Shown here piece by piece: positions 544 to 10,617 of a stretch of DNA of 64,000 bases. Under the pieces are notes generated by a model that was given only the letters and a program-made list of their open reading frames with translations, did no database searches and had not been told where the DNA came from. The position numbers and the translations under genes are program-made. Source of the DNA: Tissierellales bacterium (GTDB lineage: Bacteria > Bacillota > Clostridia > Tissierellales > Sedimentibacteraceae); assembly GCA_018433765.1 (NCBI GenBank), contig JAHDQO010000001.1, positions 186,001 through 250,000 of the forward strand, written 5' to 3'. Within the stretch, counting starts at the first letter, position 1; each line of letters begins with the position of its first letter.

Positions 544-1458
544 ATGTATAAAAAAATTGATGAAATTTTAGGCTCAAATAAATGTAATATAATTAAAGTA
601 ATAGATAAAGGTTGGTCAAATGACAAGAAATATTATATAGAGACAAACAATGGAAAACGACTATTACTTCGTATTTCTGATATATCACACTTTGAAAAAA
701 AGAAGCAAGAATATGAAGCAGTAAAAAAACTAGATGATTTTGATATATTAATGTCAAGACCAATTGATTTTGGTGCTTGTAATGATGGTAAGGAAGTTTA
801 CTCTTTACTTACATGGATTGATGGTAATAATGCTGAAGAAATTCTTCCAACATTAAGTAATGAAGAACAATATAAACTTGGGCTTAAAGCAGGTAAAGTA
901 TTGAGAAAAATTCATCAAATTTCTCCACTTGAAGATCAAATACCATGGGAAGAGCGTTTTAATTGTAAAATTGATAGAAATATAAAAGCTTATCAAACTT
1001 GTGAAATAAAATTTAAAGATGCTGATAAGATTATAAGCTATATTAATAATAATAGATATTTATTAAAAAATCGCCAGCAATCATTTCAACATGGTGATTA
1101 TCATGTTGGAAATATGATAGTTTCACGGAATGGAGAAATAGGAATAATTGATTTTAATAGATTAGATTACGGTGATCCTTGGGAAGAATTTAATAGAATA
1201 ACTTGGTGTGCAGATGTCAGTAAATTATTTGCTTCTGGACGTATTAATGGTTATTTTAATGGTGATGTTCCAGATTCATTTTTTAAATTAATGGCATTAT
1301 ATATTGGCAGTAATCAACTTTCATCAGTCCCTTGGGCAATTAAGTTTGGACAAACACAAGTCGATATAATGATAGAGCAAGCTCAGAAAATTATTAAAAG
1401 TTATAATGGGTTTCAAACATATATACCAAATTGGTATGTACCAAACTACAATGATTAG
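544..1458 (+). CDS. APH-family (aminoglycoside/choline-type) phosphotransferase
   Basis: 304 residues with the kinase-like fold of the phosphotransferase enzyme family (APH, Pfam PF01636). The catalytic loop HGDYHVGN lies near residue 183 (Brenner-type HGDxHxxN) and the metal-binding IDFNRLD about 20 residues later. The N-terminal third holds the glycine-poor nucleotide-binding lobe. Family members phosphorylate small molecules such as aminoglycosides, macrolides, choline or homoserine, and the substrate here cannot be read from sequence. AGAGG precedes the ATG. It is followed after ~86 bases by LuxE/LuxC-like genes on the same strand, so a role in modifying a small metabolite with them is possible. 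Drug resistance is not implied. Confidence 0.75.
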   Translation: MYKKIDEILGSNKCNIIKVIDKGWSNDKKYYIETNNGKRLLLRISDISHFEKKKQEYEAVKKLDDFDILMSRPIDFGACNDGKEVYSLLTWIDGNNAEEILPTLSNEEQYKLGLKAGKVLRKIHQISPLEDQIPWEERFNCKIDRNIKAYQTCEIKFKDADKIISYINNNRYLLKNRQQSFQHGDYHVGNMIVSRNGEIGIIDFNRLDYGDPWEEFNRITWCADVSKLFASGRINGYFNGDVPDSFFKLMALYIGSNQLSSVPWAIKFGQTQVDIMIEQAQKIIKSYNGFQTYIPNWYVPNYND

Positions 1459-1544
1459 GTATATAGTTAATATTAAAAAAATTGCTAATACTTTTTTGTA
1501 CAGAAAAAATAAATAGTATTATTGAAGATGGAGGTGTTTAAGAA

Positions 1545-2672
1545 ATGATAGCTAGAGAGAAGTTATTTAGATACAATAAAATTTATGATCATAAAGGTAG
1601 CGAAAAATTATTTATAGATGCTATGAAAGAGTCTTTAGAGCATCATAGTCAACATTGTGAATTTTATAATAAATTACTAACTAATTATAATTTTAATATT
1701 GAAAATATAAAAAACGAAAGTGATTTAGCTAGTATTCCAGCTATTCCATCGCATTTCTTTAAATATCATGAAGTGATTAGTGGAAATCGAGAAGATATAG
1801 AATTACATGCAACATCTTCGGGTACTTTGGGACAAAAAAGCCAGATTTTTTTGGACAAGAGTTCATTAGAAATTGGAACTAAAATGATAATTAAAGCAAT
1901 GAAGTATCACAAATTTATTTCAATAATACCTACTAATTATTTGCTTTTAGGCTTTGAACCAAAAGAGGGAAATGAAATGGGAAATGTTAAAGTACTTACA
2001 GGTATGACACGGTTTGCACCAGCTAAAGAAAAGGTATTTGCTTTAAAAGCAATTGGAGATAATTATCAAATTGATTATTTTGGATTACAATCAGCACTTA
2101 AACGTTTTGAACGACAAAAGCTTCCAGTAAGAATTTTTGGATTTCCTTCATACTTATATATGATGTTAAAAATGATTCGGGATTCCAAAATTAAGCCACT
2201 TAAATTGAATAAACATTCATTAGTTTTCACAAGTGGTGGGTGGAAAAAATATAACGATCAAGCAATTAATAAATTAGAGCTATATAAAATGGTAGAAGAA
2301 CTACTTGGAATACCAGCAGAAAATTGCCGTGATTTTTACAGTGCTGTTGAGCATAGTGTTGCTTATCCTGAATGTAAAAATCATCATATGCATGTACCTA
2401 TTTGGAGTAGAGTAATAATTCGTGATGTAAAAACACTTGAACCTGTGGGATTTAATCAAGAGGGATTTTTAAGTTTTATTAGTCCACTTGTATCATCAAT
2501 GCCTATTTCATCAATTATTATGGGTGATATGGCAGTTTTAAGAGATGGCAAAGAATGTGGATGTGGTATTACTACACCTTATTTTGAAATTATCGGTAGA
2601 GCAGGAACAAGTAAAAATAGAACATGCGCTATTACAGCTTCTGAGTTAATGCAAGGAGGTATATATGAGTAG
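1545..2672 (+). CDS. LuxE-like acyl-protein synthetase / acyl-activating enzyme
   Basis: 375 residues matching the LuxE acyl-protein synthetase family (PF04443), which activates a carboxylate with ATP and holds the acyl group for reduction by LuxC. Visible motifs are the adenylation-type loop HATSSGTLGQ near residues 88-97, FTSGGWKK near 226-233 and a C-terminal GCGITTPYF. A GGAGG ribosome site precedes the ATG. The last 8 bases overlap the next gene, which is LuxC-like, so the two are translationally coupled and very likely form a two-component acyl reductase. No luxA, luxB or luxD is nearby, so bioluminescence is not indicated. The product is probably an aldehyde for another pathway. Confidence 0.8.
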   Translation: MIAREKLFRYNKIYDHKGSEKLFIDAMKESLEHHSQHCEFYNKLLTNYNFNIENIKNESDLASIPAIPSHFFKYHEVISGNREDIELHATSSGTLGQKSQIFLDKSSLEIGTKMIIKAMKYHKFISIIPTNYLLLGFEPKEGNEMGNVKVLTGMTRFAPAKEKVFALKAIGDNYQIDYFGLQSALKRFERQKLPVRIFGFPSYLYMMLKMIRDSKIKPLKLNKHSLVFTSGGWKKYNDQAINKLELYKMVEELLGIPAENCRDFYSAVEHSVAYPECKNHHMHVPIWSRVIIRDVKTLEPVGFNQEGFLSFISPLVSSMPISSIIMGDMAVLRDGKECGCGITTPYFEIIGRAGTSKNRTCAITASELMQGGIYE

Positions 2673-3951
2673 TATTTTTAGAGGAGAGAGAGTTTCAACC
2701 AAAGAATTTTTAAAACGTCTTAATGAGTTAAGTAATATTTTAAGAGAAGATTTGCTTTTGGAACCTTTAAATTCTGATATAGTTATTGAAGCTGCAAATA
2801 AACTAGCATTAAAAATGGAGCCAGAGATGTTAGAAACTTATCTTGTGTATAATGGGATGTCTAAATGGAAGGCAAAATTACTTATTCAAGTCATGATAGA
2901 TGAATTAAAAAGAGATGAGCTTGAAAAGAAAGTTTTTAGAGAACTTGGAGAAAACCCTTTTGAATGGCAAATAGTTGAAAAGGAAATTGAAGAAAAAGAT
3001 CAACCATATGGTGTATTGATGCATATAGGTGCAGGTAATGAAATTGGTTTGTCAGCTATAAGTGTACTTGAAGGTCTTCTATCAAGAAATATAAATATAT
3101 TAAAATTACCTTCTTATGAAGGTGGTATTTCAGTAGAGTTGTTAATGCAGTTAATTCAAATTGAACCGAATCTTAAACCATATATTTATGTTCTCGATAT
3201 TTCTTCAAATGAAAAAGAAATTCTTAGTCAAGTGGCTGAATTAGTAGATGCGGTGGTTGTTTGGGGTTCTGATGAAGCTATAGCAGGAATTAGACAATTA
3301 GCACCATCTCATTTACCAATAATTGAATGGGGACATCGCATAAGTTTTGCATATTTTACTCGTAATGATCAAAATGAAAAAGACCTTAACGGACTAGCAC
3401 TAGATATATGTCTAAGTGATCAACAGTACTGTAGTTCGCCTCAATGTGTATTTTATGAGACAGAAGACAAAGATGAACTTAATCAATTTGCTTATAAACT
3501 TGCGAAACATATCGAAGAGGTATCATTAAAATATCCATCAACTGCACAATCAAAAACAGTTGAAGCTCAAATTACATGGACTCAAGAACTTGTTAAGATG
3601 GAAGAAATATTAGGTGAGAAAAAATTAATTAAAAATCATAATTCTAACTGTAGTGTTATGATTGATTATCAACCTAAATTAAAAGCTTCACCACATTTTC
3701 GCAATATTTGGGTCATGCCAATAAAACGTCAAGATATAATGAATATATTAAGAATACATAAAGGACATTTACAAACTGTTGGATTGAGTTGTGACAAAGT
3801 AGAAAAAGAAAAATTATCCCATATTTTTTATGCTGCAGGAGTTAATCGAATTAATGCTTGTGGCAAAATGTCGGATACATACAGCGGTGAACCACACGAT
3901 GGTTTCTATACACTTAGAAAGTATGTAAGAAAAATTAGTAGAAGACTATAA
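2665..3951 (+). CDS. LuxC-like acyl-CoA / acyl-protein reductase
   Basis: 428 residues of the LuxC acyl-CoA reductase family (PF05893), an NAD(P)H-dependent enzyme that reduces a protein- or CoA-bound acyl group to an aldehyde. The aldehyde-dehydrogenase-like catalytic cysteine is most likely C256 in DQQYCSSPQC. GAGNEIGLSA near residues 120-130 and VVWGSDEAI near 200 form the nucleotide-binding core. Length is close to marine LuxC (about 480), slightly shorter. The start overlaps the LuxE-like gene by 8 bases. The GEPHDGFYTLRKYVR tail is conserved in type. The physiological acyl substrate is unknown. Confidence 0.8.
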   Translation: MSSIFRGERVSTKEFLKRLNELSNILREDLLLEPLNSDIVIEAANKLALKMEPEMLETYLVYNGMSKWKAKLLIQVMIDELKRDELEKKVFRELGENPFEWQIVEKEIEEKDQPYGVLMHIGAGNEIGLSAISVLEGLLSRNINILKLPSYEGGISVELLMQLIQIEPNLKPYIYVLDISSNEKEILSQVAELVDAVVVWGSDEAIAGIRQLAPSHLPIIEWGHRISFAYFTRNDQNEKDLNGLALDICLSDQQYCSSPQCVFYETEDKDELNQFAYKLAKHIEEVSLKYPSTAQSKTVEAQITWTQELVKMEEILGEKKLIKNHNSNCSVMIDYQPKLKASPHFRNIWVMPIKRQDIMNILRIHKGHLQTVGLSCDKVEKEKLSHIFYAAGVNRINACGKMSDTYSGEPHDGFYTLRKYVRKISRRL

Positions 3952-4101
3952 ATCATTAAATCTATTGCTCTTACTTTGATATAGTAAATCAAGAATATGA
4001 TATCAATAATATCAGAGATATATGTTTATATCGTTGAATTTATAACGAATTATTTCCCCGGCAATAAAGGAAAATAATAACAAGTAAAAGGAGAAAATTA
4101 T

Positions 4102-4680
4102 ATGGAAAGTGTACATATGATATCAAATTTATCTAGTAATAGAAATAATAAATTAATTAATATTACTAATAAAAATATTAAATTTGAAAATAGCTTCATA
4201 AAAGCAAAAACAGATTCTGTTTTAAAAGAATTAGAAAAAAGATTTGGTATGAAAATTGATGTTAGATCAATAAAAAAGGGACATAAAAATGTTTCAAGAT
4301 ATGCGACAAGTGCAGGAGCATCACCTATTGTAATAGCTCCTAATATTTTAGAAAAAATGTCAACAGATATAAACCTCAAGAAGAATATAACAAGTTGTAT
4401 TCAAAGACATATTAATTCTATCCCTTCTGGAAAAAAGTTTTTAGCAGCACATGGCAGACAACTTGTTGCTACTGGAACCATAGTACATGAAGATGGAACA
4501 GTAACTCACTGGACAATGTCCGTTGAAACTCCAGAAGAAAAAGAAAGAATAGAAGAGCAAATGGAAGCTGAATATGAAGAAAAATTAGAAAAAGCAGAAG
4601 CAAATAATTTGTTTATAAATACTTCTTTAGATAATATAAATACATATACATATAGCCTTGACAAATTCATATACAATTAA
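4102..4680 (+). CDS. Conserved small cytoplasmic protein (DUF6033-like)
   Basis: 192 residues, no signal peptide or membrane segment. The middle (about 45-150) is the conserved-looking part, with FGMKIDVRSIKKGH, YATSAGASPIVIAPNIL and GTIVHEDGTVTHW, and a charged helical stretch rich in Glu and Lys follows. The layout resembles DUF6033 proteins of Firmicutes, which have no established function; this match is from memory. A strong AAAAGGAGA ribosome site precedes the ATG (GGAG at 4091-4094), and a terminator lies 26 bases after the stop, so it is probably a single-gene transcript. Confidence 0.6.
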   Translation: MESVHMISNLSSNRNNKLINITNKNIKFENSFIKAKTDSVLKELEKRFGMKIDVRSIKKGHKNVSRYATSAGASPIVIAPNILEKMSTDINLKKNITSCIQRHINSIPSGKKFLAAHGRQLVATGTIVHEDGTVTHWTMSVETPEEKERIEEQMEAEYEEKLEKAEANNLFINTSLDNINTYTYSLDKFIYN

Positions 4681-4706
4681 ATATTTTTTAATATTATATA
4701 GTCTCT

Positions 4707-4741
4707 AAAACCGTATCACTAAGTAGATACGGTTTTTTTAT
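4707..4741 (+). terminator. Rho-independent terminator
   Basis: An AAACCGTAT arm, ten-base loop and ATACGGTTT arm are followed by a run of T. This separates the small conserved protein from the five-gene operon downstream. Confidence 0.9.
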
Positions 4742-4828
4742 TTATGTTTTTGATTATTTACTTGAGCAAAAACAATCTAATAAATTATCCCAAATAAAGA
4801 AAAATATAATTAAATTAAACAATATTTA

Positions 4829-4856
4829 TTGAAAATATAAATAAATGGTATATAAT
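4829..4856 (+). promoter_or_regulatory. Sigma-A type promoter of the HD/radical-SAM operon
   Basis: TTGAAA at 4829-4834 and TATAAT at 4851-4856 are separated by 16 bases. It lies about 90 bases before the first gene of the five-gene operon, and no terminator intervenes. Confidence 0.6.
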
Positions 4857-4945
4857 GTACATATATGACAATATTAAACAAAATAATTAATTTATTGCAA
4901 TAATACTTGCAAAAAAATTTATGAAAGGAGAGGAGATTAAGTTTA

Positions 4946-5650
4946 ATGGAAAAAAATATGTACAAATTTATCGAAGATTATATGCTTGAATGCATGCAGG
5001 ATAGTGCTCATGACTGCCAGCACGTTTATCGTGTTCTCTTTATGGCTCTTTTGATTGCTGACAAAGAAAACAATGTAGATTTAGATGTTTTAATTACAGC
5101 TTGTTTACTTCATGATATAGGAAGAGAAAAACAGTTTAAAGATAAATCGTGCTGTCACGCAGAAGTAGGAGGTGAGATGGCTTTTGATTTCTTACGAAAG
5201 AATGGGTGGAGTTATGATAAATCTAATCATGTAAAACAATGTATACAAAGCCATAGATTTAGAACTGATAGACTTCCTAAAAGTATTGAGGCCAAAATTT
5301 TATTTGATTCAGACAAATTAGATGTCACAGGTTCTATGGGTATTGCACGTACATTAATATATAAAGGACAAGTCAATGAACCACTTTATACAACTGATAA
5401 AAATGGAGATATACAAACAGGAGAGGACTTTATAAAACCGATATCTTTTATGGATGAATATCATTATAAGTTAAAAAAACTATACACAAATTTTTATACT
5501 AATTATGCAAAAGAAATAGCACAAAACCGACAAAAAATATTAATAGATTATTATGAGAATTTATTAAGTGAAATACAGTTTACATATAAAGGCAAAAAAA
5601 TATTATATGATGATATTTTAAATGATAATACTGATAAAATAGAGAGGTGA
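4946..5650 (+). CDS. HD-domain phosphohydrolase
   Basis: 234 residues with the metal-dependent HD phosphohydrolase signature: a first His in AHDCQHVYRV near residue 26-31, the His-Asp doublet in LLHDIGRE near 56-60, CCHAEVGGEMAF near 71, and a distal Asp in DSDKLDV near 130. HD enzymes of this size hydrolyse phosphate esters, often of nucleotides. Ribosome site AAAGGAGAGGAG. It is the first gene of a tight operon with two radical SAM enzymes, a cupin-like protein and an NDK-like protein. That setting suggests removal of phosphate from a modified nucleotide, by analogy with OxsA of the oxetanocin pathway; this is inference. Confidence 0.8.
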   Translation: MEKNMYKFIEDYMLECMQDSAHDCQHVYRVLFMALLIADKENNVDLDVLITACLLHDIGREKQFKDKSCCHAEVGGEMAFDFLRKNGWSYDKSNHVKQCIQSHRFRTDRLPKSIEAKILFDSDKLDVTGSMGIARTLIYKGQVNEPLYTTDKNGDIQTGEDFIKPISFMDEYHYKLKKLYTNFYTNYAKEIAQNRQKILIDYYENLLSEIQFTYKGKKILYDDILNDNTDKIER

Positions 5651-5656
5651 CTTATA

Positions 5657-7024
5657 ATGTTTTTAAAGAATATTAATATATACAAAATCTTGTTTGATGT
5701 CAGGTTTAAAATAAATAAACAAAATGAGGATGGAGATATAGTTAGTGAAGAGTTTTCATATAGTGATGGAGATTTTCTTGAGATAGTATTGTACTTAACT
5801 AATGATAGATTGTTGATTATTTCATTTGCGCTTGATGGATTTATCGTTAGCGTAGAAATGGGAGAAAAAGATAGGAAAAATAGGATTAGTATTTTTCAGA
5901 GAAATTTCAATGGACAAATGTATATTTTCCCAAAGAATTGTATTAATTTAGACAGAAAAATAATTGATTATTATTTGGATTATTATAATACCAATATAAT
6001 AATTGATGATAAAAAATCTATGCAAGTAATGGAAGATGTATATAAGACTCTTAAAGTTATCAACAAACGTATTTTCGACGAAAAAGCAGATGATTTAGAT
6101 AAAAAAGGGTTGGACAATATAAATAAAATACTAGATAGATGTATAGATCAAACTAATGATATTTTGTTTAATGATAGTAAACAAACAAAAAAAGTCTATG
6201 AAGGAGGCTTAACTGTATTACCTCCAAATGTAAGACCAGACATTGATACTCAATATATAATTATTCAAGTTACAACAGGATGTAAACTAATGGAACAGCG
6301 TAAAAAACCTTGTGCATTCTGTACATCATATTTGGACAACTCTTATCGTGAAAAGAAAGAAAATGAAATAAAAGAGCATCTGTCTATATTAAAAAGAACA
6401 TATCCTATACTAATTGAAAAGGCTAAGTGTGCATTCTTATCAGATGGTGATCCCCTAATTTCACAAAATATAGTAGAGTATATTGATATTATAAAAAATG
6501 AACTACCTACAATTCAATATTTTGAGTCATTTGCTAGTACACATTCAATTTTAACAATAAGTGATGAAAAATGGCAAACTCTAAAAAATAAAGGACTTCG
6601 TACAATATATTGGGGAGTAGAAAGTGCTAGTAATGATACATTAAAGCTAATAGATAAACCTCATAATAAGGAAATGCTTTTAAAAGCAAGAAGAAAACTT
6701 GAAGAAAATGAAATAAGTTACAATATCATAGTTATAAGCGGCTTAGGAGATATATTAAATAAACATAAAACAGATAGTTCTATATGTGAAAATGAACATG
6801 TTAATGAGACTTGTAAATTCATAAATGAGTCAAGCTGTTCTGGTGTGTTTATATCTAAGCTTCAAATTCCTAAAGAGAGTAATTTACATAAAAAAGTTAT
6901 AGAAGAAGAAATCTATCCATTAAGCGAATTAGAAATGGATGACCAGTATAGAAATATGATAAAGAAAATTGATAAATTTGTTAAAGGTTCATATGGAAAT
7001 CAATTTGTTGTAGAGAGGGTGTGA
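5657..7024 (+). CDS. Radical SAM enzyme with CX9CX2C cluster motif and large N-terminal domain
   Basis: 455 residues. The first ~200 are an extra domain I cannot name. A radical SAM TIM-barrel follows: cluster cysteines C209, C219 and C222 (spacing CX9CX2C rather than the usual CX3CX2C), a GGE-like element AFLSDGDPL near 255, IYWGVESAS near 315, and NIIVISGLGD near 355. Elp3-type proteins share CX9CX2C spacing, but the rest is not Elp3 (no acetyltransferase domain). It generates a 5'-deoxyadenosyl radical and the substrate is unknown. The start lies 6 bases after the HD gene and its stop is 4 bases before the next gene. Confidence 0.8.
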   Translation: MFLKNINIYKILFDVRFKINKQNEDGDIVSEEFSYSDGDFLEIVLYLTNDRLLIISFALDGFIVSVEMGEKDRKNRISIFQRNFNGQMYIFPKNCINLDRKIIDYYLDYYNTNIIIDDKKSMQVMEDVYKTLKVINKRIFDEKADDLDKKGLDNINKILDRCIDQTNDILFNDSKQTKKVYEGGLTVLPPNVRPDIDTQYIIIQVTTGCKLMEQRKKPCAFCTSYLDNSYREKKENEIKEHLSILKRTYPILIEKAKCAFLSDGDPLISQNIVEYIDIIKNELPTIQYFESFASTHSILTISDEKWQTLKNKGLRTIYWGVESASNDTLKLIDKPHNKEMLLKARRKLEENEISYNIIVISGLGDILNKHKTDSSICENEHVNETCKFINESSCSGVFISKLQIPKESNLHKKVIEEEIYPLSELEMDDQYRNMIKKIDKFVKGSYGNQFVVERV

Positions 7025-7028
7025 GAGC

Positions 7029-7688
7029 ATGTTTAAAGAATATTTTAAAAACATAAGCAATGATTCATTTGATGAATTTTCAACAACATCTGTACAAGCA
7101 TTAAAAAAAATTGTTAATAATAAGAGCGTAATATTAGAAATGCTAGATCATGTATTAGAAGATGAAGTGTTAATAGAAAAATCAGAATGCTATGATTTTT
7201 TAGATAAAATAGTAATATTTTCAGATGAAGAAAAAGGAGTTTATGCTAGGGTGAGTTTGTTTAACAATAAATATTCTAACAGAATACATTATCACCGTTG
7301 GAATTACAGCGCATATATTTTGAGCGGAGGATATAAACAGATGATTTATGGAATTGCAAATGGCAATGAAGATATCACAAACCTATATCCGTATACACCT
7401 AAGCTAATAGAGCAGTTGAGTAAAGGAAATTACTATTCACTGCACCATTCAATGATACATTCAGTGATAGCTATTCCAGATAGTGTGTCAATTTGTATAC
7501 GAGGATGTGCATATAAAGACAAATTCCAAGCTATAGATCCTGCTACTGGAAATTCTTGGTGGCAGTTCGGGTCAAAAATGGAAGCAAAAGAAGAAAGAAT
7601 TATGAAATCATTATACGGTGATGCCTTAAGAAAAAGAATAGAACATATAAAAAAAATAATAAAATTAGAAGGTGAATATTATGTATAA
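7029..7688 (+). CDS. Cupin-like protein of unknown function
   Basis: 219 residues, soluble. The centre looks like a double-stranded beta-helix (cupin): RIHYHRWNYSAYILSGGY near residues 88-105 followed by YYSLHHSMIHSVIAIPD near 137-153. The paired histidines (HYHRW, LHHSMIHS) could bind a metal, as in small-molecule dioxygenases or isomerases of this fold. The fold call rests on the spacing of His and Gly residues, not on a family match. It lies 4 bases after the first radical SAM gene and overlaps the second, so it is co-translated with both and probably acts on the same product. Confidence 0.55.
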   Translation: MFKEYFKNISNDSFDEFSTTSVQALKKIVNNKSVILEMLDHVLEDEVLIEKSECYDFLDKIVIFSDEEKGVYARVSLFNNKYSNRIHYHRWNYSAYILSGGYKQMIYGIANGNEDITNLYPYTPKLIEQLSKGNYYSLHHSMIHSVIAIPDSVSICIRGCAYKDKFQAIDPATGNSWWQFGSKMEAKEERIMKSLYGDALRKRIEHIKKIIKLEGEYYV

Positions 7689-8739
7689 AATGGGAGAAAA
7701 AATGAAAGTAGATATTGATAACAGTAAATTTGGAGCTGACTTTAAAAATATTTACATATATTTAACAAATGACTGTACCATGCACTGCAAGCACTGTTAT
7801 TTGGGGAAAAGGCTAACGTCAAGAGAAACTATGCCTGTTGATATGGTACTTAATCATCTTGAATTTTGGAGAAAATTAGGTTCTAGTAAGATATGTTTTC
7901 TTGGAGGTGAGCCGACATTATATAAAGATTTAAGAGATTGTGTTGATTATGCTCATAAGTTAGGATATGAAAAAGTAATAATTAATTCTAACCTAATTAA
8001 TAGTTCATTTAATGTTATTAATGATTTTTCAAAAGATGATTTCACATATGTTCAGGTTAGCTTAGATGGAGCTACAGAAAAAACTCACGATACAATAAGA
8101 GGTGTTGGAGCATATAAGCAAACTGTTGAGTCAATAAAGAAACTTAGTGCAAGAGGATTTGATGTAAGAGTAATAATGACAGTTAACCAAATTAATAAAG
8201 GTGAAGTATTAGATATTATTCCTTTAGTAGAAGAAATGGGAGCTAGTTTAGTTAAATTTCACATAATGTCTGAAATAGGAAATGCAAAAAAAGAGCATAA
8301 GTTAGGAATAGATCCAGCTGAATGGTTTGAAATATGCAGAAAAGTTAGAAAGTATTCTGAAAAAGAAGGTAGAAAAATTAAAATTTCATATCAACCATCA
8401 TACAATCTAAAAAGTGATCCAGATCCATACATAATAGATCATTATCCTGGATGCGTAGGAAAATATAAAGAAAGAATATCTATTTTTGCAGATGGAAGAT
8501 GTTATATATGTTCATTCCTTTTTGATTACAAATCTAGTTATGCTGTTTTAAAAGATAATGTAATTGAAATAAATGAAAAGTCAATAGAACATTCCTTTGA
8601 TGACTATGGATGCAATCAATGCATTAATCCTTGCGGCTTTGATGGGTGTAAGGCTGAACGTATGATATATAATGATGATTTTTGCGGCAGCAATACAGAT
8701 TTGTATCCTGTATGTCGTTTGTGGAAGATAGAAATTTGA
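7681..8739 (+). CDS. Radical SAM enzyme with C-terminal cysteine-rich (SPASM-like) region
   Basis: 352 residues from ATG 7681 (GAAGGTG upstream; overlaps the previous gene by 8 bases; ATG 7690 or 7702 are alternatives). A canonical CX3CX2C cluster is C32, C36, C39 in DCTMHCKHC, followed by CFLGGEPTLY (GGE motif) near 75-84 and VQVSLDGATEKTHDTIRG near 125-142. The last third has clustered cysteines (CYICSF, CNQCINPCGFDGCK, VCRLW), the pattern of auxiliary Fe-S domains of the SPASM/twitch type. Such enzymes modify peptides or small molecules. No obvious precursor peptide sits beside it, so a small-molecule substrate is as likely. Confidence 0.8.
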   Translation: MYKMGEKMKVDIDNSKFGADFKNIYIYLTNDCTMHCKHCYLGKRLTSRETMPVDMVLNHLEFWRKLGSSKICFLGGEPTLYKDLRDCVDYAHKLGYEKVIINSNLINSSFNVINDFSKDDFTYVQVSLDGATEKTHDTIRGVGAYKQTVESIKKLSARGFDVRVIMTVNQINKGEVLDIIPLVEEMGASLVKFHIMSEIGNAKKEHKLGIDPAEWFEICRKVRKYSEKEGRKIKISYQPSYNLKSDPDPYIIDHYPGCVGKYKERISIFADGRCYICSFLFDYKSSYAVLKDNVIEINEKSIEHSFDDYGCNQCINPCGFDGCKAERMIYNDDFCGSNTDLYPVCRLWKIEI

Positions 8740-8761
8740 CGGTAGTTATAGGAAAACAATT

Positions 8762-9676
8762 ATGCGAGATATTAATAGAATAAATATTTTAATAAAACCT
8801 GACGCATTTATTAGGAAAAAATTAAAAGATATATTAGTTTTTATAGAGCAAAATGGCATACATATAGTACATTTTAATTTAATAAAACCTAATTCTATTT
8901 TATTGGATTATATGTATCAAGAGCAGTTTAACTGGGAATATGATTTTTATACACATAATCTGAATTTATTTACATTAGGACCTAGTTTATCACTAATCTG
9001 TGAAGCAGATAGTAAGACTAAACTTAATAAAGACTACTTACGCAGTATAAAAGGACATTCTTTGGCATCAAAAAATAATAAATATACTTCAGTAAGAGGT
9101 AAATTTGAAGTTTTAGATAGATGTTTAAATCTAATACATATTTCTGATGAACATTATAATAATGCTAATGAGATTAACTGCATATATCAGCTAAAAAATA
9201 ATCAAAATCTCTCTAATGGAGATTTTAGGAATAAATTATCTGCAGAGTTAGTATACTCAGAAGTTATAGGATTGTTAGGAGATATGAGTGAATATTCTGC
9301 AGAAACCATAATAAAAACTCTAATTAAACGAATTACTCATAGATATTGCAGCTGCCTAAATTATGCGGTTAATCTTGTAGAAAAAGAAAAAGTTTCAAAA
9401 TTAAATCAAATAGTATTAAATTATTCCACTAATTTTGATAAACTTATAAATTCGATAAAAGAATATGGTGATTATTATTTGTTACCAACTTTGATTAAAA
9501 TGGTAACTATAAGTACAGAGCTGCAAAATATAATTTCATCAGTAGAGACAGAAAAGAAAATAAGGTTTCTTGATTATTTTTGGACATTATGTGATAAGTC
9601 AATGATTTATATATCACCACAAGAGAAGTATATTATTACTAGTGATGCATTATATTATTCTGTGAATAAACATTAA
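8762..9676 (+). CDS. Nucleoside-diphosphate-kinase-like domain protein
   Basis: 304 residues. The first ~150 resemble nucleoside diphosphate kinase: NILIKPDAF near residues 8-16 (the catalytic-Lys loop of NDK), HSLASKNNKYTSVRGKFEV near 99-117 (the NDK TIRGDF region) and LNLIHISDE near 123-131, where H126 aligns with the phosphohistidine of NDK (NxxHxSD). About 150 helical residues of unknown type follow. The family reading is by motif and is not proven. With an HD phosphohydrolase first in the operon, it suggests phosphates are added to and removed from a nucleotide-like intermediate. It is last in the operon, 25 bases before a terminator. Confidence 0.6.
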   Translation: MRDINRINILIKPDAFIRKKLKDILVFIEQNGIHIVHFNLIKPNSILLDYMYQEQFNWEYDFYTHNLNLFTLGPSLSLICEADSKTKLNKDYLRSIKGHSLASKNNKYTSVRGKFEVLDRCLNLIHISDEHYNNANEINCIYQLKNNQNLSNGDFRNKLSAELVYSEVIGLLGDMSEYSAETIIKTLIKRITHRYCSCLNYAVNLVEKEKVSKLNQIVLNYSTNFDKLINSIKEYGDYYLLPTLIKMVTISTELQNIISSVETEKKIRFLDYFWTLCDKSMIYISPQEKYIITSDALYYSVNKH

Positions 9677-9700
9677 TAAATTACAATAATTATAAAGGTA

Positions 9701-9743
9701 AAAAACTCCCTTAAGAATTATATATTTTCTTAGGGAGTTTTTA
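9701..9743 (+). terminator. Rho-independent terminator of the five-gene operon
   Basis: AAAAACTCCCTTAAGA pairs with TCTTAGGGAGTTTTT, giving a long stem with a T tail and an A run on the other side. Confidence 0.9.
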
Positions 9744-9797
9744 ATAAATTATTACATAAGAGATGGTGACGAATGTGAAAAAAATTTTAAAATAATA

Positions 9798-9826
9798 TTG
9801 ACAAACTTAGAAAAACAGATTATGAT
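9798..9826 (+). promoter_or_regulatory. Consensus promoter of the amino-sugar regulator/operon
   Basis: TTGACA at 9798-9803 and TATGAT at 9821-9826 have an exact 17-base spacer. The operator begins 8 bases downstream, so a bound repressor would sit on the transcription start. Confidence 0.85.
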
Positions 9827-9833
9827 TAATTAA

Positions 9834-9847
9834 GTGGTAATGACCAC
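9834..9847 (+). promoter_or_regulatory. GntR-type operator, copy 1
   Basis: The palindrome GTGGTAATGACCAC sits immediately after the -10 box. The identical 14-mer recurs before agaS (10633-10646). The TGGT...ACCA half sites fit HutC/NagR/DasR-type regulators, and the regulator gene follows directly. Confidence 0.8.
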
Positions 9848-9888
9848 ATTACAAGTTACTACAAATATGAAGAATTGGTGAATTTAGG

Positions 9889-10617
9889 ATGAAGAAAATC
9901 AATAAAAACAGTAGGATTGCACTATATTATCAGTTGATGGATATAATAGTAGAAGACATTGAAGATGGTAAATTAAAAGAAAATGATAAATTACCTTCTG
10001 AAAGAGAACTATGTATTGAATATGATATTAGCCGTGTTACAGTGAGAAAAGCTATCCAAGAATTAGAAAAAAGTGGGTACATTTATAAAGAACATGGAAA
10101 AGGTACTTTTGTTTCACCAAAAAAATTTGAACAGGATCTTTTAAAGTTCTACAGTTTTACTGAAGAAATGAAAAAAATAGGAAAGATACCTTCGTCTAAA
10201 GTAATTAGTTTTGAAATAGTAACTGAAGATGAGAAGATTGCTAGAAAATTAAAATTAAATCTTAATGACAAAATATATAAATTTACTAGATTGAGACTTG
10301 CTGATGAAAAACCTATGATATTGGAAACTACGTATGTTCCTTATGATAGGTTTATTGGGCTAACGAAAAAAGATTTAGAAAATCAACCTATGTATGATAT
10401 TTTTACAAAGACATATAATGCTGTTTTTACAACAGCAGAAGAAACATTTCAGGTTATAGCTGCTAGAAGTAGAGAAGCTAAATTACTTGAAATTTCAAGT
10501 AATACTCCGTGCTTAATGGTAGAGAGAATTACATATGAAGATGACCTAATTATAGAGTATACTAAAAGTGTTACCAGAGGTAATAAATTTAAATATCATG
10601 TAATACTCAAAAAATAA
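9889..10617 (+). CDS. GntR-family (HutC/NagR-type, UTRA domain) transcriptional regulator
   Basis: 242 residues. An N-terminal winged helix (about 10-75) carries the GntR signature KLPSERELCIEYDISRVTVRKAI, and a UTRA effector domain (about 95-240) has FTEEMKKIGKIPSSKV and ARKLKLNLNDKIYKFTRLR. Regulators of this type bind amino-sugar phosphates and release TGGT...ACCA operators. Two identical operators flank the gene, one on its own promoter and one before agaS, so autoregulation and control of the PTS operon are expected. The ribosome site before ATG 9889 is weak (TTAGG only). Confidence 0.9.
   Translation: MKKINKNSRIALYYQLMDIIVEDIEDGKLKENDKLPSERELCIEYDISRVTVRKAIQELEKSGYIYKEHGKGTFVSPKKFEQDLLKFYSFTEEMKKIGKIPSSKVISFEIVTEDEKIARKLKLNLNDKIYKFTRLRLADEKPMILETTYVPYDRFIGLTKKDLENQPMYDIFTKTYNAVFTTAEETFQVIAARSREAKLLEISSNTPCLMVERITYEDDLIIEYTKSVTRGNKFKYHVILKK

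Follow-up and report, generated by a model that had tools for sequence, protein, structure and literature searches.

The window analysed here, a 64,000-nucleotide stretch of a Tissierellales genome (contig C13:186001-250000 within a 4.19 Mb assembly), harbors an operon of five co-directional genes packed tightly on the + strand between 4946 and 9676, with spacings of 6 (P1-P2), 4 (P2-P3), -8 (P3-P4) and 22 bases (P4-P5), as the initial annotation of this DNA had described it. These genes, named P1 to P5 (Table 1), encode an HD-domain phosphohydrolase, two radical SAM proteins on either side of a cupin-like protein, and a protein with a nucleoside diphosphate kinase (NDK) domain, identities already proposed in that annotation and borne out by Pfam and, for P3, by an AlphaFold model. 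P2, P3 and P4 occur together in two phyla, and we lean, somewhat beyond even chances, towards reading the operon as a compact route to a modified nucleoside or nucleotide.

Table 1. Features of the operon and its borders (positions in the window; aa, amino acids)
Feature	Start	End	Strand	Basis
Terminator-like hairpin; closes the upstream DUF6033 gene and parts the operon from it	4707	4736	+	hairpin scan
Promoter-like site TTGAAA-16-TATAAT	4829	4856	+	pattern scan, 11/12 match
P1, HD-domain phosphohydrolase, 234 aa	4946	5650	+	Pfam, PDB search
P2, radical SAM protein, 455 aa	5657	7024	+	Pfam; CX9CX2C
P3, predicted three-His cupin, 219 aa	7029	7688	+	AlphaFold fold, alignment
P4, radical SAM protein, 352 aa	7681	8739	+	Pfam; CX3CX2C; 8-base overlap with P3
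P5, NDK domain and C-terminal part	8762	9676	+	Pfam NDK
Hairpin with T-run, probable terminator	9703	9743	+	by eye; absent from scan list

P1 matches the Pfam HD family (5.6e-15) and contains the H...HD...D pattern, with H26, H56, D57 and D123 as putative metal residues (assigned by eye). Its matches in the PDB (2pq7, 1.1e-23; YedJ 3gw7, 1.5e-15; 5dqv, 1.1e-14) indicate that it resembles YedJ and the HD nucleotide pyrophosphohydrolase YpgQ. YpgQ (5DQV) is reported to hydrolyse nucleoside and deoxynucleoside triphosphates (PMC8177086), and PenF, from the Ara-A/pentostatin cluster, is a YpgQ-like HD enzyme described as a nucleoside 5'-monophosphatase (PMC11592144).

The two radical SAM proteins differ in their accessory parts. 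P2 (Pfam Radical_SAM, 9.7e-12; Cys 209/219/222) has an unassigned N-terminal part: residues ~1-190 match nothing in Pfam or NCBIfam at E <= 1, and residues 109-160 have a single weak PDB match (TRAPPC3 7yh2, 0.0034). In its C-terminal part, P2 is similar to a family of clostridial radical SAM proteins of ~290 aa. Among 391 genomes of the class, 57 match P2 at 1e-10, and all matches other than the window cover the radical SAM part alone (query residues ~150 onward). On a Sulfuricurvum plasmid (L161 4457-5861), a radical SAM gene related to this C-terminal part lies directly 3' of a 3'-5' exonuclease gene; the neighbors of four plasmid relatives of P2 include this one exonuclease and otherwise no shared theme. 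P4 (Radical_SAM, 6.3e-21; Cys 32/36/39) ends in a Cys-rich, SPASM-like tail (C258, C274, C277, C311, C314, C318, C323, C335, C345), which has no Pfam SPASM match at E <= 1. The seven-Cys pattern of SPASM domains is C-X(9-15)-G-X4-C ... CX2CX5CX3C ... C, and C258-X13-G272-X4-C277 of P4 fits its first part by eye. Kitasatospora and Nocardia plasmids (L051, L052, L053, ~5993-10615) carry a further type of cluster, in which two tandem P4-related radical SAM genes are accompanied by a gene annotated gltX and one with a nucleotidyltransferase domain.

No Pfam family was found for P3 at E <= 1, and membership of another known family was rejected (NCBIfam returned only a meaningless PQQ dehydrogenase score of 0.094, and a phmmer search of the PDB one unrelated chain at 0.49), so that P3 was placed by fold search alone. 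The AlphaFold model, built from 20 aligned sequences, adopts a cupin fold (mean confidence, pLDDT, 90.5) and superposes on mercaptosuccinate dioxygenase 8vni (Z 12.7, root-mean-square deviation 3.0 over 158 residues, 12% identity), the best rows of the search being thiol dioxygenases at 12-15% identity. Within its set of histidines (H87, H89, H139, H140, H144), H87, H89, H140 and H144 are invariant in 19/19 aligned sequences, consistent with what a three-His metal site would need, and the model points to a three-His cupin whose fold is closest to thiol dioxygenases. The host genome has no match to either oxidase family tested, COX1 or bd oxidase (of 14 genomes, the control queries match in 8 and 10, respectively), so that an oxygen-dependent reaction is unlikely here; P3 more probably works without oxygen, possibly by isomerase- or epimerase-type cupin chemistry.

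P5 exceeds the gathering score of Pfam NDK (51.3 bits against 27; 1.5e-13) over residues 9-143, and keeps KPDA (at 12) and NLIHISD (at 123) when aligned to solved NDKs. The KPDA and His-containing NLIHxSD motifs have a catalytic role in NDK. With 44.7 bits against a cut-off of 155 for the NCBIfam ndk equivalog, P5 has, judged by its sequence, an NDK-like domain and is not an ndk equivalog. The relation of this last gene to NDK, as initially annotated, holds for this domain at the sequence level, but the C-terminal ~160 residues have no convincing Pfam or NCBIfam match.

The grouping of these genes was followed in other genomes. The most informative case is a Patescibacteria contig (L054), one strand of which carries a gene read by eye as rnhB, which P3 overlaps, then P3, P4, a DEDD exonuclease gene (RNase_T, 1.4e-21) and P2, with identities to the window of 36% for P3 (201 aa), 41% for P4 (336 aa) and 34% for P2 (433 aa, most of the N-terminal part included; its cluster is spaced CX8CX2C). 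The P4 tree unites the window and this contig (97/97), with long branches and sequences of unlike composition, and the P3 tree does not settle their relation. In Nocardia farcinica, P3 comes directly after an ortholog of P4 (38% identity over 343 aa). A scan for P4, with a two-sequence alignment and one genome per species, yielded 75 loci, divided by identity to the Nocardia P4 into 41 P4-ortholog loci (50% or more) and 34 others (below, or no match). Within the fetched DNA, the P4-ortholog loci contain P3 (36), an adenylate-kinase-like kinase (40), a NUDIX gene (38), a PfkB gene (27) and a regulator like the NsdA-family one of Nocardia (37/41), as compared to one NUDIX gene, and no P3, kinase, PfkB or NsdA-like regulator, in the 34 others. 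P4 and P3 are direct neighbors in 31/36 loci (match gaps of 0-32 bases); NUDIX and PfkB genes separate P4 from P3 in four Micromonosporaceae loci, and the order on the Patescibacteria contig is P3-P4. Of the five P4-ortholog loci lacking P3 (L065, L083, L089, L092, L100), the last three have a P4 that is itself cut or broken. The kinase of Nocardia scores 4.3e-12 (46.1 bits, cut-off 168) to an adenylate kinase model, and its counterpart at another locus (L055) matches AAA_33 (1.1e-8). Given the Patescibacteria set and the counts in P4-ortholog loci, the grouping of these genes exceeds chance. It exists in at least two versions, P2-P3-P4 (window and L054) and kinase-P4-P3-PfkB-NUDIX (actinomycetes), since P2 has no match in seven actinomycete genomes having P4 orthologs.

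P3 is rare: it was found in the window alone among 398 genomes of the phylum, and among 249 genomes of the order in the window plus one weak match with stops (G085, 4.2e-4). A P3 profile matches 2/332 genomes in the phylum of the Patescibacteria contig and 3/325 in the class of the Streptomyces locus L083, and tblastn located P3 in 8 plasmid records of actinomycetes at E <= 0.01. Three actinomycete loci (L047 4330-13376, L048 6788-13418, L143 6448-14873) represent a second context of P3, beside a homologue of OxsB, the B12 radical SAM enzyme of oxetanocin A biosynthesis (PDB 5ul2, 7.5e-72 for L047, to which the two counterparts are 57% and 62% identical). They also carry endonuclease/exonuclease/phosphatase-family hydrolases, a DegT aminotransferase with an extra N-terminal part (which in L047 shows sub-cut-off P-loop matches), a formyltransferase and, by annotation in L047 and L048, an aldo/keto reductase, and are possibly new oxetanocin-like nucleoside clusters. 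Elsewhere, a distant P3-like gene (L131; profile E 3.2e-10) lies directly 3' of a thymidylate kinase gene, with a NUDIX gene one gene further, and another, at L050 and with 17% identity, has genes annotated as dTMP kinase and NUDIX two to three genes away; the radical SAM protein of that locus showed no OxsB likeness in the PDB search.

In searches of mobile elements, P4 has no match in phages at 1e-10, P2 a single one in phages, to its radical SAM part, and none in viral contigs with a profile, P5 none in plasmids and viral contigs, and P3 alone none in a first search of viral contigs. One viral contig (L158 6522-20243, IMGVR_UViG_2868068591_000005) contains the kinase-P4-P3-PfkB-NUDIX cluster with an NsdA-like regulator. 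Genes for RusA and a PAPS reductase border it on one side and those for terminase, portal and major head proteins on the other, which leaves a role in conflict open for the actinomycete-type relatives. Another P3 relative (L157) is found at the end of its contig, with a terminase gene 3 kb away.

As regards the borders of the operon, for which the initial annotation had named one promoter and one terminator, the site at 4829 is good by its pattern, but such promoter-like sites (59 in 3900-9900, compared with 47.9 +/- 7.0 in shuffles of this AT-rich stretch) barely exceed chance, making it weak evidence, and the final hairpin was seen by eye but not listed by the scan. The G+C content of the operon (27.8%) is close to that of its flanks (27.8% and 29.4%), so that composition shows no sign of recent import. 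Just upstream (544-3951), genes for an APH-family kinase, a LuxE acyl-protein synthetase and a LuxC acyl-CoA reductase adjoin each other, as an aldehyde-forming set.

What could such an operon do? Nucleotide chemistry as the common theme, a proposal of the initial annotation, gained support because nucleotide-type kinases and hydrolases recur beside P3 and P4 in actinomycetes, an OxsB homologue occurs in the second P3 context, and P1 resembles YedJ and YpgQ. A nucleotide as the actual substrate is suggested by the P3-like genes near thymidylate kinase genes and by the NDK motifs kept in P5. The mechanism proposed here shares its logic with published nucleoside pathways (Oxs, thm, tub, Pol) that pair radical SAM enzymes with a kinase or hydrolase, as for example PolH/PolJ, a radical SAM enzyme paired with a phosphatase (PMC5365060). 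The NDK domain of P5 would convert a nucleoside diphosphate or an intermediate into the triphosphate, P4 and P2 would use radical SAM chemistry to alter the sugar or the base of this nucleotide in its phosphorylated form, the metal cupin P3 might accompany them with an isomerization, epimerization or dehydration for which oxygen would not be needed in this host, and P1 may take phosphates off, thereby freeing the product or protecting the producer. We infer the nucleotide substrate, the order of the steps, the reactions of P2, P3 and P4, and the nature of the product.

Several observations weigh against a nucleoside or nucleotide pathway. Co-occurrence, which the initial annotation had proposed to count, stands for P2-P3-P4 and P3-P4, which recur, but not for the full five-gene set, which was found in the window genome only, among everything searched. 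The Patescibacteria run comes without a kinase and with an exonuclease as partner, P2 has no match in the seven actinomycete genomes, and the second P3 context is without P4. The counts in actinomycetes have their own limits: 31/41 P4-ortholog loci are Nocardia by record title, and hence few independent events, and the 34 controls are unmatched (mostly from other phyla, some 3-8 kb long, and compared with Nocardia reference proteins). Kinases and NUDIX genes are frequent in actinomycetes anyway. For the Nocardia kinase, Pfam gives no match at 0.01 and the PDB only RecA chains, over residues 4-30. One Streptomyces locus (L083) has P4, kinase, NUDIX and PfkB genes and no P3 match in the whole genome, and L065 has no P3 nearby (at both, the P3 search gave merely short fragments, E 0.74 or worse). 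As for the proteins themselves, the predicted structure of P2 was discarded (pLDDT 45.9), the middle of the P4 tail reads CX2CX3CX4C (C311, C314, C318, C323), followed by C335 and C345, a partial fit to SPASM, the top NCBIfam scores of P4 are peptide maturases, P5 could be the ordinary NDK of the cell, and no exporter lies inside the operon. Our confidence in the pathway is not higher because the controls are unmatched by phylum, neither Pfam nor an adenylate kinase in the PDB supports the Nocardia kinase, and P3 is absent from the genome of L083.

Among the rival readings, two come first, both of them unlikely. The stronger one is the modification or repair of nucleic acids or tRNA, with P2 altering an RNA or DNA nucleotide, P4 and P3 in tailoring, and P1 and P5 as nucleotide-pool enzymes. 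It draws on a ~290 aa relative of the P2 C-terminal part (L018) that scores best to HpnJ (2.4e-15), and then to two tRNA enzymes, MnmL/YtqA (1e-13) and RaSEA (1.3e-7); these values lie far under the cut-offs, and P2 itself is weaker (MnmL, 0.02). On the Patescibacteria contig P2 comes after the DEDD exonuclease and P3 overlaps the putative rnhB, and the Sulfuricurvum relative of the radical SAM part of P2 likewise directly follows an exonuclease gene, but the two exonucleases show no clear homology (25% over 36 residues, E 0.15). Moreover, the distribution is rare, the seven actinomycete genomes gave no P2 match, and no RNA-binding or tRNA domain was found. Next comes nucleotide salvage or clean-up, in which a damaged nucleotide would be detoxified and P5 would be the NDK of the cell. 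No NDK-family protein other than P5 was found in the 4.19 Mb genome (the P5 query has no match in 16/27 searched genomes of the family, some of them incomplete), and house-cleaning is a frequent role of HD, NUDIX and DEDD enzymes. Clean-up would nonetheless be costly with a cupin and two radical SAM enzymes, P3 relatives have OxsB-like, aminotransferase and formyltransferase genes as neighbors, and an NsdA-family regulator accompanies the Nocardia cluster that was tested.

The maturation of a ribosomally synthesized peptide by P4 is distinctly improbable: the best profile scores of P4 do belong to peptide maturases (ScmF 102, WgkB 84.7, StsB 84.1), far short of cut-offs of 400-650, the operon has neither peptidase nor exporter, no closed ORF of at least 20 aa was found in 4600-4960 or 9640-9900 in a search limited to ATG starts, and the kinases and nucleotide hydrolases would be left unexplained. 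Lowest of all we place an anti-phage system that would make a chain-terminating or poisoning nucleotide, as viperins do. P4 does match PADLOC pVip (1e-21) and the NCBIfam viperin model NF038283 (62.6 bits), NDK could provide the triphosphate, and one kinase-P4-P3-PfkB-NUDIX cluster lies amid phage genes; the viperin cut-off of 180 is missed, however, many radical SAM families score as well or better, and P4 has its Cys-rich SPASM-like tail. The viperin-like action suggested at first for the window is not sustained by these scores. As for the defence or export neighbors that the initial annotation had proposed to look for, PADLOC gave no match in the ten neighboring genes scanned, and the operon itself holds no exporter.

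If the preferred reading of a nucleoside or nucleotide pathway is true, the operon would represent an undescribed pathway of an anaerobe, possibly leading to a new nucleoside compound; P3 would be an uncharacterized cupin family usable as a genome-mining marker for such pathways, and P2 and P4 two radical SAM subfamilies with testable substrates. A bolder version, which we regard as improbable, is that of a new nucleotide-remodelling class, with a P2-P3-P4 core in a Bacillota-type anaerobe and a Patescibacterium and a P3-P4 core in actinomycetes and one of their viruses, in which the window would yield an intracellular nucleoside triphosphate analogue (an NDK is present and an exporter is not) that would serve in conflict or as a signal inside the cell.

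Among the open-licence papers listed in literature searches, none describes a pathway with this gene set, as judged from titles and abstracts, in agreement with the initial annotation; nor was a description found of the P4 loci conserved in Micromonosporaceae and in 31 records of Nocardia. Individual components can nevertheless be compared with known systems. P1 shares the H...HD...D pattern with YpgQ and PenF; it has R and Y at the offsets of PenF R140 and F144, a shift of four residues is needed to bring its H and K to the offsets of H174 and K178 (offsets counted, not aligned), and it differs from YedJ in its score to the equivalog PRK10119 (83.1 bits, cut-off 286). P3 is like cysteine and thiol dioxygenases in its modeled fold and putative three-His site, and differs from them by its low identity, the lack of a Pfam match, and a host without COX1 and bd oxidase. 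P4 shares with viperins the CX3CX2C radical SAM cluster and the nucleotide theme, and differs by its score, its tail and its partner genes.

Among whole clusters, that of tubercidin (tubA-I; PMC6112128) includes, encoded among tubB, tubG and tubH, a radical SAM enzyme, a NUDIX hydrolase and a carbohydrate kinase, the latter two listed consecutively, as are NUDIX and PfkB in the actinomycete relatives; TubB is proposed for early steps to the deazapurine base, no counterpart of P3 or P4 is named, and the window carries HD and NDK proteins in place of NUDIX and PfkB. The 4'-thiothymidine genes thmA-C of Photorhabdus (PMC12691670) combine one radical SAM enzyme with a nucleoside kinase and a resistance-conferring nucleoside triphosphatase in a similarly compact set; they are three genes with one radical SAM enzyme, and the word "cupin" is absent from the main text of the paper. 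A further parallel in logic is the oxetanocin A cluster, where 2'-dATP is the preferred substrate of OxsB and OxsA takes off between one and three phosphates (PMC13331322), and from which the albucidin cluster, with an OxsB homologue (albB), differs in having no oxsA (PMC7074753). Direct kinship with OxsA and OxsB, the pair cited in the initial annotation, found no clear support: neither P2 nor P4 matches a Pfam B12-binding domain at E <= 1, the PDB search with P1 returned 8 matches at E <= 0.01, of the YedJ/YpgQ type and without OxsA among them (a weak match could escape), and the window adds a second radical SAM enzyme, a cupin and an NDK. The combination of an HD phosphohydrolase with a radical SAM enzyme (B12-dependent in OxsB) is nevertheless common to both, as P1 with P2/P4, and an OxsB homologue shares the second cluster type with a P3 relative; compared in this way, the set would be a radical SAM nucleoside or nucleotide pathway with a new core.

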